Positions 20,099 through 38,328 of a stretch of 39,624 nucleotides of DNA are shown piece after piece. The translations under genes and the position numbers were made by a program. A model generated the notes under the pieces. It was given only the letters and a program-made list of their open reading frames with translations. It ran no database searches and was not told the origin of the DNA. This DNA comes from an uncultured bacterium (GTDB lineage Bacteria > Calescibacteriota > Calescibacteriia > Calescibacteriales > Calescibacteriaceae). Location of the stretch: the NCBI GenBank assembly GCA_938036315.1, contig CALHPK010000012.1:1-39624 (forward strand). The letters are read 5' to 3'. Every line of letters starts with the position of its first letter. The first letter of the stretch is position 1.

Positions 20099-21697
20099 TC
20101 AACCTTTTATATCATTTATGAGCTTTGAGACATCCTTTATCAGGACTGGAGATGATAAATCATACTCTGAGATATATGGTAATTTATTCTGAATAGATTT
20201 AATCTCAGCAGATAATTTTTCCAACTCGCTTTTGATAGTGTAGAATTTGCGTAAGAGTTCTGAAATACCACTTAGAATATTCTCTGTAGCAGATACAACG
20301 TTTATGATTTCTGAACTGACTGCCTCTATCCATTCTGAGAATCTTCTGAAAGCCGAAAAAAACTCTTTAGACTTACCTGCCATCTTTGACAAATCATCAT
20401 ATATCCCTACACCATGCTGTAGCGAAGTAAGTTGCTCAATTTTTTCTACAAATAAAGGTATCTTAGGTTGAACCGCGTTCTTCCAACTACTCTTTATCAG
20501 CAACAAAGCTTGTTCTATCTCTTCTGCGCTCTTTTCAACATCAGTTAACTTATTCATAAAATCCTCTAAATTAAAAGAGAAATCATACACAGCATCATAA
20601 AAATTTTTTATATAGACGGAGAATTTGAAGAGGATGCTATCCATATCCTGGAGTATAACCGTAAGAGAGCGCCTGACACCTATATCGTTAGAAATGCTTG
20701 ACATCTGCATAATTTTTAAGGAAACCGAAAACGAATTATTAATTACTCTCTGTATTTCACTAACAAGAAGCTTAAGAAAAGATAAAGCATTGTAAAGCGA
20801 ATTCATACTATTGTACACTTTCTTCACATCCAAGCTTTCAAAGTAAGATGAAAGCTTATTAACTACATCCTCAAATAAATTGACCTCATTCTGAACTTCC
20901 TGATAATCATACGATACCTTATCTTCTGTTTTTTCTTCTACTTGTAATCCTCCTACATTAGAACTGTGCAATCTCTCAAGCTCTTGCAAAACTTTAAGTA
21001 TACTACTTTCCATAAATAATTGTATTTCTTTGAACTTTTTCTGATGTGAGGAAAAGAAAGTGAAAATATTAAGAAGCTCGGAACACACATTATCTATTAT
21101 ATTAACAACAATATTGATGCTTTCTACCCTCTTTTTACAAGATTCAAAAATCGTTTTGTATTTTTGCTTTGATTCATCAAAGTTAGATAGAACACTGTTT
21201 TTAACCTCAGCATCAAGATAAGAAAGTTCATCAGAATATGAATCACCTTGCTGAGCTGGAGAATCTGAAAATTTAAGAGATTGATCCTGACTTCTTGATA
21301 TCTCTACCCGCTGTTCATATTTATCTTTATCTTTATAGATTTCCGTACCACTGCGGGTGCCTACATTGTAATCTTCTGCGATTTCAGTTGAGAACTTAAG
21401 AACCAACATAGCTACAACTGATAGGAAAAACATAACAAAATATACGAAAATCGGAGCAACTCCGTAAACAAAATTCCATAAAACTATAATTTGTAATGAG
21501 AAGACAAAGAACCCAAACCATATCCACACAGGGAAAAATATATTCAAGAACCCAACAACAGAAAGCCCAGCAACTATCAGATATGAGAATTGTCCAACAT
21601 TCAGAACTATTGCTAACCCTAAAAGCAAAATACATATAATCTCTGAAATAACAAAAATAAGAAGGTTTTCCTTAAGCTTTTTCAAAATATCACCCAT
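20099..21697 (-). CDS. Membrane-anchored coiled-coil protein, chemoreceptor-like, function unknown
   Basis: A 532-residue protein not recognised as a named family. Residues 11-100 contain about four membrane helices with almost no loops. Residues 101-165 are a polar Ser/Lys/Asp-rich linker. From about 165 to the end it is continuous helix with heptad character. Near 321-350 the sequence S-L-K-I-M-Q-M-S-S-I-S-N-D-I-G-V-R-R-S lines up position by position with a chemoreceptor hairpin tip ([18 protein letters not shown]), but most consensus residues are replaced. It is transcribed eight bases after the 601-residue neighbour and precedes trmN6-like and bamA. A cytoplasmic coiled coil tethered to the membrane is secure; the MCP relation is inference. 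Confidence 0.75.
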   Translation of the reverse strand: MGDILKKLKENLLIFVISEIICILLLGLAIVLNVGQFSYLIVAGLSVVGFLNIFFPVWIWFGFFVFSLQIIVLWNFVYGVAPIFVYFVMFFLSVVAMLVLKFSTEIAEDYNVGTRSGTEIYKDKDKYEQRVEISRSQDQSLKFSDSPAQQGDSYSDELSYLDAEVKNSVLSNFDESKQKYKTIFESCKKRVESINIVVNIIDNVCSELLNIFTFFSSHQKKFKEIQLFMESSILKVLQELERLHSSNVGGLQVEEKTEDKVSYDYQEVQNEVNLFEDVVNKLSSYFESLDVKKVYNSMNSLYNALSFLKLLVSEIQRVINNSFSVSLKIMQMSSISNDIGVRRSLTVILQDMDSILFKFSVYIKNFYDAVYDFSFNLEDFMNKLTDVEKSAEEIEQALLLIKSSWKNAVQPKIPLFVEKIEQLTSLQHGVGIYDDLSKMAGKSKEFFSAFRRFSEWIEAVSSEIINVVSATENILSGISELLRKFYTIKSELEKLSAEIKSIQNKLPYISEYDLSSPVLIKDVSKLINDIKG

Positions 21698-21705
21698 ACT
21701 TTATA

Positions 21706-23511
21706 TCATCCGTACTTTTTATCTGCATAAGATTCCAAATCTCCAAGCAATTTCTCAAGATGTGATCTTACACTAACCTGCAGATTTTGGAATAAATCTA
21801 AAACACCCTTGATCTCCCTACATCCCAAGGCTTCGCAATTGTATATCATCACTGGAAAAGTTTGGGACACCGATAACATAAATTTTCCAAATTCATCCAA
21901 CTTCAATAGAACACTGCTGAAGTTATCCAAAGAAAAGATAACGGATTTGTGTACCGCAGAGGCAAGATTATCTACGGAAAACTTAATCTTCTGTAGAGAT
22001 CCTAAAGCATCTTCAAGAAGCTTTACGTCTAAGTTTTCAAGCTTTGCTGAATCCAAAATTTTATAAATTTCTTCAAGAACTGCCTCCATATTCTTGGCTT
22101 GATTCAGATCGCCCTCGATCTTATCAACCATTATCTTTATTGCAGAGGATAGTATATCGATTCCGGGAACCTTAGCCCTTATCTTATGGGATATAATCTG
22201 CGAATTAAGGTAAAGCATATCTATGCTCTCTAAGATTTCTTTAAGGTTGACAGCAAAATCTGAATATTTCGAGATAAAAGCTTTGAATTCATCTTTCACC
22301 GTATAGATAACACCAAATTTTCTAAGAAAATTTTGAGATTCCGAGTTAAAAATTCCATACCAGTTTTCCACACCTCCCAACGGTGAAATTATCTCATAGA
22401 AAATATGCTCAAATTCCTGAAGAGCGGTTCTAATTTGTCTGATCTCCAAATCTAACTTTTCTCTCAAATTAAGTAGTTCTAGATAGAAATTCTTAACAAA
22501 CTGCTCGTGGAAAGATTCTAAATTTGCTCTAAAATCCGATGTCAAAAGAAGGAGATTTTCCACTTTTTTAGGGAAATTACCACAATCCCCAAGAATTCTT
22601 TTAGCATCCTGTATGCAGGACAAAAGCTTTCCCTTTACCAGGAGGACTTCTCGATCTTTCTGATTGATAATCTCTGCATAGGAACTGAGTTCATCGCTAA
22701 ATTCTTTGATAAATTTTTCATCTTTGTTAATAGCATTTTTTATAGCCGTAAACAACTCCTGAATGTATTCTTCTGCGTATTTATACGGAGGGACTTGATA
22801 TGAGATGCTGTACTGTACGACTTTATGATCTGCCCCTACTGAAGAGGTTGCGCTACTAATTAACTCTTTGCCGATCGGTTTTGAACTTTTCAACACCCGT
22901 TCTTGATATATTGAAAAAACAGCAATAAGTAAAGGTAAAGTGAAAATCAGGAAAATCAGAATGAAAACTATTTCTTTATCTTTCAGCGGAGTTACAGATA
23001 TTGAAAAATAATCTTCACCTATCTTCAAAGTAGAAAATAACGTACCATTCATATAAGTGATGGTTCCGGGCTTCACCTCAGGGAGTTTCTCCTTTACAAG
23101 GAGCGAAAAGTTGTCAGCTGGATTTTTCATAACTTCTTTTGTTACAAAAAACCCCGATATATTGGCTGAGAAAAAAAGAATAGATGGTAAAATTACTCCA
23201 ACAACAAAAGGAGTAATGGAAATAGATAATATTGTAAAAATGTCACATATCAAAAAAATCAAGATCAACCAAAACTTAGCTGAGGTCATATAACATGGTA
23301 CGACACTTATTGCACTTGTAAAGATAATTAGCAGAATTATTTCAAGCAATCCGGTAAGCCTTCTTAAAAACAGAATCTCTACAATAAACACCATAACTAA
23401 AAAAGCAATAGCATACAGATTCCAGTTTAATTCAAATGAAAAGAATGAAATGCTAGAAATTGCTAACAATTTGGAGAAAAAACGAATCAGTACTAAAGTC
23501 AGAAGTTTCAT
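21706..23511 (-). CDS. Membrane sensor-like coiled-coil protein, function unknown
   Basis: A 601-residue protein not recognised as a named family. About five membrane helices span residues 5-140. A ~60-residue extracytoplasmic segment (V-T-K-E-V-M-K-N … S-V-T-P-L-K-D-K) resembles the membrane-proximal part of a Cache sensor, and a sixth helix (E-I-V-F-I-L-I-F-L-I-F) follows. The rest, about 210-601, is helical. At 426-465 the tip-like D-M-L-Y-L-N-S-Q-I-I-S-H-K-I-R-A-K-V-P-G is a degenerate match to chemoreceptor [14 protein letters not shown]. Cysteines are present but not in motifs. It pairs with the 532-residue neighbour (8 bp apart), and a 72-residue membrane protein lies 29 bp upstream. 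The sensor role is inference. Confidence 0.75.
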   Translation of the reverse strand: MKLLTLVLIRFFSKLLAISSISFFSFELNWNLYAIAFLVMVFIVEILFLRRLTGLLEIILLIIFTSAISVVPCYMTSAKFWLILIFLICDIFTILSISITPFVVGVILPSILFFSANISGFFVTKEVMKNPADNFSLLVKEKLPEVKPGTITYMNGTLFSTLKIGEDYFSISVTPLKDKEIVFILIFLIFTLPLLIAVFSIYQERVLKSSKPIGKELISSATSSVGADHKVVQYSISYQVPPYKYAEEYIQELFTAIKNAINKDEKFIKEFSDELSSYAEIINQKDREVLLVKGKLLSCIQDAKRILGDCGNFPKKVENLLLLTSDFRANLESFHEQFVKNFYLELLNLREKLDLEIRQIRTALQEFEHIFYEIISPLGGVENWYGIFNSESQNFLRKFGVIYTVKDEFKAFISKYSDFAVNLKEILESIDMLYLNSQIISHKIRAKVPGIDILSSAIKIMVDKIEGDLNQAKNMEAVLEEIYKILDSAKLENLDVKLLEDALGSLQKIKFSVDNLASAVHKSVIFSLDNFSSVLLKLDEFGKFMLSVSQTFPVMIYNCEALGCREIKGVLDLFQNLQVSVRSHLEKLLGDLESYADKKYG

Positions 23512-34853: not shown

Positions 34854-35930
34854 TCAGAATTTTTTCTTTTTCCTCCACCCTGAGATTATCTTTATTTCTG
34901 CTCGTTCAATTGCTAATGCATAAGGCGGAACATCTTTGTTTATAGAAGAACCAGCTCCAATATACGCAAATTCCTCAACTTTCAAAGGAGCAATAAGCAT
35001 GCTTCCAGAACCTATAAATGCTCCATCACCTATAAAAGTTTCATTCTTTTTCTCCCCATCAAAATTGCATGTTACCGTACCAGCACCTATGTTTACATTC
35101 TTCCCTATTCTGGCATCCCCTATATAGCTGAAATGCTGAACTTTTGTTTCCTCACCTATCTCAGAATTTTTTATCTCAGCAAAATTCCCTATCTTTGCTC
35201 CCTTTCTTACAATAACCCTTGGACGCATCCTACAGAACGGTCCAACAGATACCCCACTTTCCAACTCTGCTCCCTCAATATAACAATATGGGAAAATTGT
35301 GACCTCATCTGAAATCTTCGAGTTAATAATATGAGAACCAGCACCTACAACAGATCTATTTCCCACCTCTGACGAGATTACGAAAGAATAAGGGTAGATC
35401 ACAGCACCTTCACCTATCTTAGAATCAAGCGATATGTAGATTGAGTTCGGATCCACTAAAAAAGATTTTTTCGATACATCAGTATTTTTTATTCTCTGGC
35501 ATATTTTCCAGGCTTTGCTCCATTGATCTCCCGATCTTATGAGAAAAGAGCTCGGAGGAGAATCAACAAACTCTTTATCCGACTCCTCTATTTCTGGTTC
35601 TATTCCTACCCCAAAGGAGTTGTTCTTTGCCCAAAATGCCTTTTTCCCCCTCCCGATTTTTTTATGTAAAAACATAGTCAGGAGTATTTGCGATATAGAA
35701 TTTACCACATCGGTAGTTGGTGGAATGAAAGAATTATCGAACATAAATAGATAGAATTTCAGAGGCTCAATTTCTGCGTACGTATATTTTTGTCTCCCAC
35801 TATCAATATACTTGCAAAATTCTCTCTTGACCTCCTCCAGGGTGAGCTTTGCTATAACCTGAGGGGATAATCCAATTATATCTGGGCTCTTTCTTTCTCC
35901 TTCAAGAAGTCTTATCTCTAACTCAACCAT
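34854..35930 (-). CDS. Protein with GlmU-type acetyltransferase domain and an unknown N-terminal half
   Basis: A 358-residue protein. From about residue 157 it is a left-handed beta helix (D-P-N-S-I-Y-I-S-L-D-S-K-I-G) that matches the acetyltransferase half of GlmU closely. Counterparts of the E. coli catalytic residues are all present: Arg236, Glu252, Lys254, His266, Tyr269, Asn280 and Asn289 (C-N-F-D-G; Tyr to Phe next to it). The uridyltransferase half is absent: there is no L-A-A-G-x-G-x-R-M nucleotide loop. Instead there are ~150 residues with no family I recognise (E-P-L-K-F-Y-L-F-M-F-D-N-S-F near 55-68). It should acetylate an amino-sugar phosphate, or a related substrate. A terminator-like hairpin follows. 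Confidence 0.82.
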   Translation of the reverse strand: MVELEIRLLEGERKSPDIIGLSPQVIAKLTLEEVKREFCKYIDSGRQKYTYAEIEPLKFYLFMFDNSFIPPTTDVVNSISQILLTMFLHKKIGRGKKAFWAKNNSFGVGIEPEIEESDKEFVDSPPSSFLIRSGDQWSKAWKICQRIKNTDVSKKSFLVDPNSIYISLDSKIGEGAVIYPYSFVISSEVGNRSVVGAGSHIINSKISDEVTIFPYCYIEGAELESGVSVGPFCRMRPRVIVRKGAKIGNFAEIKNSEIGEETKVQHFSYIGDARIGKNVNIGAGTVTCNFDGEKKNETFIGDGAFIGSGSMLIAPLKVEEFAYIGAGSSINKDVPPYALAIERAEIKIISGWRKKKKF

Positions 35931-36033: not shown

Positions 36034-36747
36034 CTACTTTGCTACCCCTATAACCTGCAGTCCACCGATTCCATAAATCAGAGAAAATCCTATTCTGCTA
36101 TAGATTCCTAGGACCTCTAGTGCAGACCTCAAGTTGGTTGGCGGGAGGAAAACTATATCTCCTGGGCTGAGGTATACATTCTGTGTGAAATCTCCTTCCT
36201 TTATTATTTTCTCAATGTTTACACTGTATATATCGCTTTTTTTCTCTTTTTCGTTCCATCTTATGATATAAATATTCGAAAGCTTTACATCTTTAGGGCT
36301 TCCCTCGGCCATGATGAAAGCTTCAAGGATACTCAAGGGTCTTTGCATAAATATAATTCCAACCCTCTCAGGAGTCCACACATAAATTTTATGACTCTTC
36401 ATCGACCTTATATATACCGAGACGTAAGGATTCTTTATATACTGTGTATAGAGTTTTACAATTTCTTCTTTTATCTGAATTGATGTCATCCCAACAAGAT
36501 AAACAGCACCGACCAGTGGCATAATTATTTTTCCTTCATCATCTAGCTCGTATACACCTGAAATACCTATTTCATCAGGAAAGATCTTAACCTCTATTGA
36601 ATCACCGGGACCAACTGGATACTTCGTTTCAGGAGTTATATACGGAGGAGGTGGCGGATGATAGCGCAGACCTCTGTAACACGAGAAAATTAAGCTCAAT
36701 CCACTCACAAAGAATAAAACTATCAACTTATTCTTACTTACTCTCAT
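36034..36747 (-). CDS. Polysaccharide export lipoprotein, Wza-like
   Basis: A 237-residue outer-membrane polysaccharide export protein. A lipobox ends the signal peptide (L-I-F-S-C, Cys23). A Poly_export domain begins G-P-G-D-S-I-E-V-K-I-F and continues with G-K-I-I-M-P-L-V-G-A-V-Y-L-V-G-M. A single SLBB-like region follows (H-K-I-Y-V-W-T-P … I-L-E-A-F-I-M-A-E-G). It is short for Wza (about 380 residues) but of the size of GumB-like members. It is the last gene of the minus-strand cluster from 39568, two bases after the barrel lipoprotein. Such proteins form the channel for surface polysaccharide. Confidence 0.88.
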   Translation of the reverse strand: MRVSKNKLIVLFFVSGLSLIFSCYRGLRYHPPPPPYITPETKYPVGPGDSIEVKIFPDEIGISGVYELDDEGKIIMPLVGAVYLVGMTSIQIKEEIVKLYTQYIKNPYVSVYIRSMKSHKIYVWTPERVGIIFMQRPLSILEAFIMAEGSPKDVKLSNIYIIRWNEKEKKSDIYSVNIEKIIKEGDFTQNVYLSPGDIVFLPPTNLRSALEVLGIYSRIGFSLIYGIGGLQVIGVAK

Positions 36748-36749
36748 AC

Positions 36750-37298
36750 CTAATCTTTCCTTTTGAAATAGTAGGAGATGCCAAAAATAAAGCTATATTT
36801 TGGGGTTAAAGTCTGTCCTCTCATTATATTAACCGGGAATTCATAAAAGAACGAGAAGTTTTTACTTAAAATCTGTTCAACCCCTACTATAATATTCAAT
36901 TCGCTTGAGATATCTAATGCTTTTTGCTTTCTTGATAAGACAGCATTTAAACCAATACCCATATACGGATTTACTGTCTCGTCTATGTCGATAAAATTGA
37001 AAAGTAGGCTTCCACCTACAACTGGGAAAAAATCTTTGAAACGAGTCGTGAAATTTCCCTCATCATCTGAAAATCTGTACACATTATATATGTCAATAAT
37101 TCCGCTCACATATTCATCAAAATTTCCGGGGGATATTCTCAGTTTTGTAATTCCCGCAGCTACGGTTGTCCCCCCGTCGGTAATTACCCCTCCGCCAGCT
37201 CCAATACCAGAATAGATATTTCTCTTGAGACAAGACTGCAATAGAACAAATAAAAATATAGATGAAGACAGAACGATTATTCTAATCTGTAGTTGCAT
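36750..37298 (-). CDS. Small outer-membrane beta-barrel-like lipoprotein
   Basis: A 182-residue protein, not recognised. The signal peptide M-Q-L-Q-I-R-I-I-V-L-S-S-S-I ends in a possible lipobox L-L-Q-S-C (Cys23; Gln at -2 is unusual). The rest alternates polar and hydrophobic residues with Gly-rich turns (G-I-G-A-G-G-G-V, N-P-Y-M-G-I-G-L-N) and ends in …F-I-F-G-I-S-Y-Y-F, suggestive of a small barrel. It overlaps the upstream nucleotidyltransferase gene by 17 bp and is two bases from the Wza-like gene, so it probably serves the same export process. Confidence 0.68.
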   Translation of the reverse strand: MQLQIRIIVLSSSIFLFVLLQSCLKRNIYSGIGAGGGVITDGGTTVAAGITKLRISPGNFDEYVSGIIDIYNVYRFSDDEGNFTTRFKDFFPVVGGSLLFNFIDIDETVNPYMGIGLNAVLSRKQKALDISSELNIIVGVEQILSKNFSFFYEFPVNIMRGQTLTPKYSFIFGISYYFKRKD

Positions 37299-38328
37299 AT
37301 TCCTTTCTCAATCTTCTTATAAACTCTCTCGGAAAAACAGGCAGAATACTTGAGATCTTTCTCCATGGGAATTTCAAAGCAATAGCTAATGAAAAAATTT
37401 TATCCAAATATGGAAATGCAAAAATTCTTGGTCTCACCCTCAGAAGATAGATATCTGAAGATAAAAAATCTGATACAATGCTACAATAAAAAAATTTGCT
37501 CAGGCTGGTACTATAAAATAAATCTCTTAAATCTACTTTACCCCCAAAGAGTTTTTTTGAAGAGATGACGGAAATTAACAATTCGTTTTCCACCGAAAAT
37601 TTTTTTGATAAAAATCTAGCAGATTCCAGATGTTCCTTCTCAAGCTTATTGATTATATTGCGTATATCCAGAAGGATCCGAATCGGGAAGGCATGCTGGA
37701 AAAGATGCAACGAGACCTGAATAAGATCCCAATATTTTTTCAAGGTTTTTACCTTCAGTTGCAGATTTTTAAATTCTATTTCTATCTCTTCTGTTTCCAC
37801 ATCCTCAAATCTTATATCTGAAAAAAATCTATCACAAATGAACGTGTGAAGCCCTACGGATATCCCTTCTTTGAAGAACGTTTCAGCATGTCCTAAAATT
37901 TTCTTTATTTCTGATGGTCTAACTTTAGAAAAATTTTCTCGATTGAAGAACTTTTTAAATTCACTGCCATCTTTGACAAGGATATCAATATCTCCTGTAT
38001 GCCTTCGCCGTAGGTCTCCGTAGTATTTTTGAGCAATCGAAAACCCCTTAAGTAAGATAAAATCATCAACATCTATTAACCTTCTTAAAAATTTCAGATT
38101 CTTCAATATTTTTCCTTCATTAACTTTGAGTTCGAAATCAAAAAGCTCTGATTTTATTCCGCTTTTTCTAGTTCTGAAAGCAACTTCACAGGCTACGCCA
38201 AGTTGTCTTGATATATCAAAAAGGGGCACTTGTATTGCATCGAATTCTCTTTGTGTAAGAAAGGAGACCTCCTCATTCTCACGTAATATTTTTATAAGCG
38301 TATGAACAAGATTTAGATCGTACTCCAT
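37282..38328 (-). CDS. Nucleotidyltransferase family protein (NTP_transf_5 type)
   Basis: A 348-residue protein of the PF14907-type family, often found in polysaccharide loci and poorly characterised. The core motif is I-L-L-K-G-F-S-I-A-Q-K-Y-Y-G-D then R-H-T-G-D-I-D-I-L-V (residues 92-118), giving Asp113 and Asp115 as the metal-binding pair. The middle has H-T-F-I-C-D-R-F-F and L-H-L-F-Q-H-A-F-P-I-R. The C-terminus is basic. It lies between a TPR lipoprotein and a barrel lipoprotein, overlapping the latter by 17 bp. It probably modifies a sugar or lipid carrier; the substrate is unknown. Confidence 0.8.
   Translation of the reverse strand: MEYDLNLVHTLIKILRENEEVSFLTQREFDAIQVPLFDISRQLGVACEVAFRTRKSGIKSELFDFELKVNEGKILKNLKFLRRLIDVDDFILLKGFSIAQKYYGDLRRRHTGDIDILVKDGSEFKKFFNRENFSKVRPSEIKKILGHAETFFKEGISVGLHTFICDRFFSDIRFEDVETEEIEIEFKNLQLKVKTLKKYWDLIQVSLHLFQHAFPIRILLDIRNIINKLEKEHLESARFLSKKFSVENELLISVISSKKLFGGKVDLRDLFYSTSLSKFFYCSIVSDFLSSDIYLLRVRPRIFAFPYLDKIFSLAIALKFPWRKISSILPVFPREFIRRLRKEYATTD

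Follow-up and report, generated by a model that had tools for sequence, protein, structure and literature searches.

In Calescibacteriota, a bacterial phylum of hot springs, the bifunctional enzyme GlmU appears to survive as a descendant with a collapsed nucleotidyltransferase (NTase) half, the last step in the synthesis of UDP-GlcNAc, a building block of the cell wall, having passed to an unlinked pyrophosphorylase of the eukaryotic UAP1/AGX1 type (UAP), a reading to which we assign a probability of roughly 70%. The gene in question lies in the window, the whole stretch of 39,624 nucleotides analysed here (Table 1). GlmU is a textbook case of an essential enzyme with two functions and serves as an antibacterial target, and a phylum that appears to dismantle it would show how both halves can be uncoupled, serving as a natural experiment on what the N-terminal domain contributes beyond catalysis.

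Table 1. Features of the glmU-derived gene, with positions in the window and residues of the encoded protein.
Feature	Position	Strand	Basis
GlmU-derived monofunctional protein, proposed glucosamine-1-phosphate N-acetyltransferase, 358 aa	34854..35930	minus	ORF with ATG start; TIGR01173 match; present in 5/5 phylum genomes
N-terminal stub, residues 1-125, proposed collapsed nucleotidyltransferase remnant	35556..35930	minus	no Pfam match; dN/dS 0.095
GlmU-type linker helix, residues 126-160	35451..35555	minus	aligned with 17 full-length GlmUs; helix at residues 134-154 in the AlphaFold2 model of the full-length protein
Left-handed beta-helix acetyltransferase domain, residues 161-358	34857..35450	minus	all GlmU active-site residues

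A GlmU acetyltransferase domain joined to an unusual N-terminal half had been proposed from the sequence-only reading, and this layout was confirmed at exactly 34854-35930, with TIGR01173 (glmU) matching the second half of the protein (profile positions 238-451 on residues 145-357, 247 bits, E 2.8e-73). This score lies below the full-length cut-off of the family (366.85), which the ORF fails because its first half is absent. The NCBIfam glmU models match from about residue 136 onward only, and residues 1-153 gave no Pfam match even at E 5, NTP_transferase included. An unassigned N-terminal part thus exists as first described, but with a length of about 125 rather than about 150 residues, since residues ~126-160 align to the connecting helix of GlmU itself, albeit with a weak profile match (E ~0.02-0.07).

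The search for relatives covered five genomes of the phylum, namely that of the window (G000, a fifth species) and four others (G001-G004), which together span three genera of one family and are all drafts, each 82-86% complete. The NCBI taxonomy places the genus Candidatus Calescibacterium in the phylum Candidatus Calescibacteriota, and populations of Calescamantes, as the phylum was formerly named, are described as likely Gram-negative heterotrophs of hot springs (PMC4791363). The succession of N-terminal part, GlmU-like linker helix and beta-helix recurs in all five genomes and in all three genera, the N-terminal part ranging from 96 to 129 aa among the relatives, with the shortest version in G002. 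Pairwise identity amounts to 63-66% in the beta-helix and 25-33% in the N-terminal part when the close pair G001/G003 is left out; within that pair, the values are 94% and 83%, respectively. Furthermore, dN/dS between these two is 0.095 for the N-terminal part, 0.115 for the rest and 0.11 overall. The N-terminal part is therefore under purifying selection and constrained, and free-running decay is not the case; P16, I19, G20, F64, F68, P70 and P71 are invariant in it. A chance ORF was considered as well and is excluded by the conservation in three genera together with the overall dN/dS. Scanning the genomes of 84,980 species with the N-terminal alignment returned four other loci, all of them the known relatives (titled Candidatus Calescibacterium nevadense, Bacterium HR19, bacterial MAG and Candidatus Calescibacterium MAG), and revealed no wider stub family, in a scan that relies on conserved peptides and that distant relatives may escape.

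The genomic neighbourhood supports vertical descent of the gene from a standard glmU locus, because in G002 tRNA-Gln(TTG) and prs come after it, neighbours that recur at some ordinary glmU genes: within 1.5 kb flanks of the GlmU loci of other bacteria, tRNA-Gln(TTG) occurs at three and a prs motif at several. This linkage has been lost or loosened in G000 and the remaining relatives. In the window, the gene is adjoined at 36034-38328 by a Poly_export/SLBB protein, a 182-aa protein to which no Pfam family matched, and an uncharacterised nucleotidyltransferase of the NTP_transf_5 type; the first two of these also adjoin the orthologue in L010. Elsewhere, at 20099-23511, the window carries two adjacent large membrane/coiled-coil proteins of 532 and 601 aa that are alike in layout, the former having no convincing Pfam match.

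On the basis of structural modelling, the N-terminal stub is somewhat better explained than not as a collapsed, inactive nucleotidyltransferase remnant. Being too short (96 residues in G002) and devoid of the GxGTR loop, it is incomplete as an NTase; the loop (LAAGxGTR or G-x-G-T-R, the G-loop) is absent from residues 1-125 in each of the five genomes. Sequence comparison gave a probability below 1% in hhalign of the stub against 17 GlmU NTase domains, negative scores in hmmsearch --max on residues 1-125, where the linker helix alone scores, and weakly, and, when the N-terminal alignment was compared with PDB sequences, nothing but a chance match (E 0.91). Within the full-length AlphaFold2 model, the stub shows an alternating beta-alpha order, with pLDDT mostly 73-91 except at residues 41-60, and structural alignments of this model to GlmU and to GDP-mannose pyrophosphorylases run through the stub; the fold matches are taken cautiously, as the model has an overall pLDDT of 67 and a poorly predicted beta-helix. 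Modelled alone, the stub is poor (pLDDT 54), and its top matches are still mostly nucleotidyltransferases at Z 5-6.3, among them CobY (Z 6.3, rmsd 4.5, 127 residues), IspD (Z 6.0, rmsd 3.5, 112 residues) and residues 4-252 of E. coli GlmU (Z 5.9, rmsd 4.8, 128 residues), although Z values below 8 may reflect merely a common arrangement and so are no proof of an NTase fold. The suggestion that residues 1-155 fold as a diverged nucleotidyltransferase thus has weak support from structure and none from sequence.

The main alternative to a remnant is that an unrelated domain, for instance one with a UAP-docking or regulatory role, has replaced the NTase domain. Such a replacement would fit the missing sequence homology to NTases, the purifying selection and the invariant residues of the N-terminal part, but the structural neighbours of the stub model are mostly nucleotidyltransferases, the stub occupies the same position and precedes the same linker helix as in GlmU, and shrinkage to 96 aa, as in G002, would be unusual if the domain had a constant binding role; altogether, we regard a replacement as unlikely. 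As a collapsed remnant, the stub is probably retained for structure or regulation, that is, for trimer packing, stability or a regulatory function. That it docks UAP or senses UDP-GlcNAc, whether as a repurposed NTase remnant or as a new domain, is a more speculative proposition still; docking, if true, would have restored a bifunctional GlmU through the non-covalent association of a bacterial acetyltransferase with a pyrophosphorylase of eukaryote type.

A second question is which enzyme transfers the uridyl group. No full-length GlmU, and no GlmU above the family cut-off, was found in the five genomes (82-86% complete drafts); at this completeness, the probability that a full GlmU escaped detection by chance in every one of them is ~1e-4 if the genomes are independent. 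The possibility that the gene is a decayed paralogue beside an intact GlmU finds no support in these five genomes. A search for a stand-alone uridyltransferase corresponding to the GlmU N-terminal half likewise found none in any of the five genomes among the PF12804 and PF00483 proteins. These comprise MobA, IspD, RmlA, RfbF, ManC, GalU, HddC-like and MurU-like proteins (MobA, RmlA, GalU and MurU-like being named by family matches and the others by eye), of which the HddC-like protein occurs in one genome, while all five have a MurU-like one. UDP-GlcNAc is nevertheless needed, as indicated by GlmS (above its cut-off in all five genomes), homologues of GlmM (in all five, below the curated cut-off) and MurA (in all five, above the cut-off in two), and LpxA and LpxD, both above their cut-offs in the genome of the window.

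The candidate for the missing step is a UAP homologue. PF01704 matches an ORF of 563 aa in G000 and one of 542 aa in G002, the companion enzyme scoring 58 bits against a cut-off of 22, and a profile built from these two homologues detected a counterpart in every one of the five genomes. The gene is split across two contig ends in G001, runs beyond the end of the examined stretch in G003, and lies in two overlapping frames in G004 (Ca. Calescibacterium nevadense; L122 1444-2424 and 2384-3163, G004:C65), a break that is likely an assembly or sequencing error, the contig having ambiguous bases. All 11 PDB sequence matches of the companion enzyme are UDP-GlcNAc/UDP-hexosamine pyrophosphorylases (best E 1.5e-22), so that it stands nearest to UAP and not to UGP/USP. 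Its AGG-S-A-TR segment aligns with the AGGQ(G/A)TR loop of UAPs, the G(D/N)GHGG and VDN motifs are retained, and an EFY-PTK segment aligns with the EFSPLK (SPxK) segment, the lysine of which is catalytic in UAPs; the alignment leaves the PKG-motif lysine ambiguous. Two of the homologues (L105 1219-2910, corresponding to G000:C6:147521-149209, and L106 1297-2925) continue past the UAP match with a C-terminal extension of ~100 aa that looks beta-rich and may be a beta-helix tail. In every genome, the UAP gene is unlinked to the acetyltransferase gene.

On these grounds, an unlinked UAP has probably replaced the uridyltransferase half of GlmU. The sequence-only reading that this lineage had split GlmU into two proteins holds insofar as the acetyltransferase is uncoupled from any active uridyltransferase half and a full GlmU was found in none of the five genomes; it does not hold for the other half, since a UAP and no detectable GlmU-type uridyltransferase is present in them, so that GlmU has not been cut into two GlmU proteins and the uridyltransferase candidate is an enzyme of the eukaryotic UAP type. 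Exclusivity of UAP to this phylum was also considered and rejected, as UAP motifs occur at three PF01704 loci of other bacteria (L134-L136); judged by such motifs, a bacterial UAP by itself is not new. Among the open-licence papers listed by literature searches, and judged by titles and abstracts, there was no relevant account of a monofunctional GlmU or of UAP substituting for GlmU in bacteria, nor one of a UAP paired with a decayed GlmU.

Alternatively, the same acetyltransferase could be served by the MurU-like protein as uridyl-transferring enzyme, with the UAP homologue acting on another sugar. This protein, a stand-alone nucleotidyltransferase that measures ~250 aa and has a tail at its C-terminus, is encoded in all five genomes (L057, L059, L061, L063, L065), carries a complete nucleotidyltransferase signature (LAAGKGER...PKPL) and has MurU as its best NCBIfam match. 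Its score for MurU, however, is only 108 bits, where the cut-off is 250, and that for GlmU is 31 bits, so that it is not GlmU-like, whereas the PDB matches of the UAP homologue are all UAPs, which have exactly the activity needed; we consider this arrangement improbable.

The acetyltransferase half is the better preserved part of the GlmU descendant, being ~35-50% identical to ordinary GlmUs. The catalytic residues that had been listed from the sequence, R236, E252, K254, H266, Y269, N280 and N289, were all found and are invariant in the five phylum members, as are K295, S308, A326 and R343. The sole change noticed near the active site concerns position 290, which is F or W and in the compared GlmUs is a Y following TCN. 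On this residue pattern, we infer that the product is a monofunctional GlcN-1-P acetyltransferase, its catalysis included. The other proposal, that the protein acetylates a different amino sugar and carries a new recognition domain, could invoke the exchange at position 290 and the novel N-terminal half, but is very improbable in view of the invariance of all remaining residues for GlcN-1-P and acetyl-CoA, the identity to GlmU, the glmU-type neighbours in one relative, and the protein's position as the sole GlmU-type acetyltransferase in genomes that carry GlmS, GlmM and MurA homologues.

Taken as a replacement of the GlmU uridyltransferase half by UAP, the data outline a pathway in which both enzyme activities, the replacement with its order of events, and the derivation of the stub from an NTase are inferred. 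GlmS would supply GlcN-6-P and GlmM would convert it to GlcN-1-P; the product of the present gene would then form GlcNAc-1-P from GlcN-1-P and acetyl-CoA, and the UAP1/AGX1-type pyrophosphorylase would join GlcNAc-1-P and UTP to UDP-GlcNAc, releasing PPi. The order of steps would be bacterial and the final enzyme eukaryote-type. UAP would have arrived before the loss, covering the last step and leaving the NTase domain of GlmU free to decay from ~225 aa to a catalytically dead stub of ~100-125 aa. For genome annotation, a 'GlmU' match in these genomes would then not suffice for UDP-GlcNAc synthesis, the missing step being provided by UAP.

Among known systems, bifunctional GlmU (TIGR01173; E. 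coli 1hv9, S. pneumoniae 1hm8) shares with the present protein the left-handed beta-helix acetyltransferase, its active-site residues and the linker helix, and shares with one relative the tRNA-Gln/prs neighbourhood; the present protein differs in the shrinkage of its uridyltransferase half, in the absence of the G-x-G-T-R loop and in being, as far as can be deduced, monofunctional. MurU, the MurNAc-1-P uridylyltransferase, resembles the stand-alone nucleotidyltransferase of the five genomes, which falls below the family cut-off. Eukaryotic UAP1/AGX1 (PF01704; 1jv1, 4bma, 3oc9) is matched by the companion enzyme over ~280-430 residues, including the catalytic motifs, whereas the companion is divergent, bacterial and extended at its C-terminus, and would pair with a GlmU-derived acetyltransferase where the eukaryotic enzyme pairs with GNA1.
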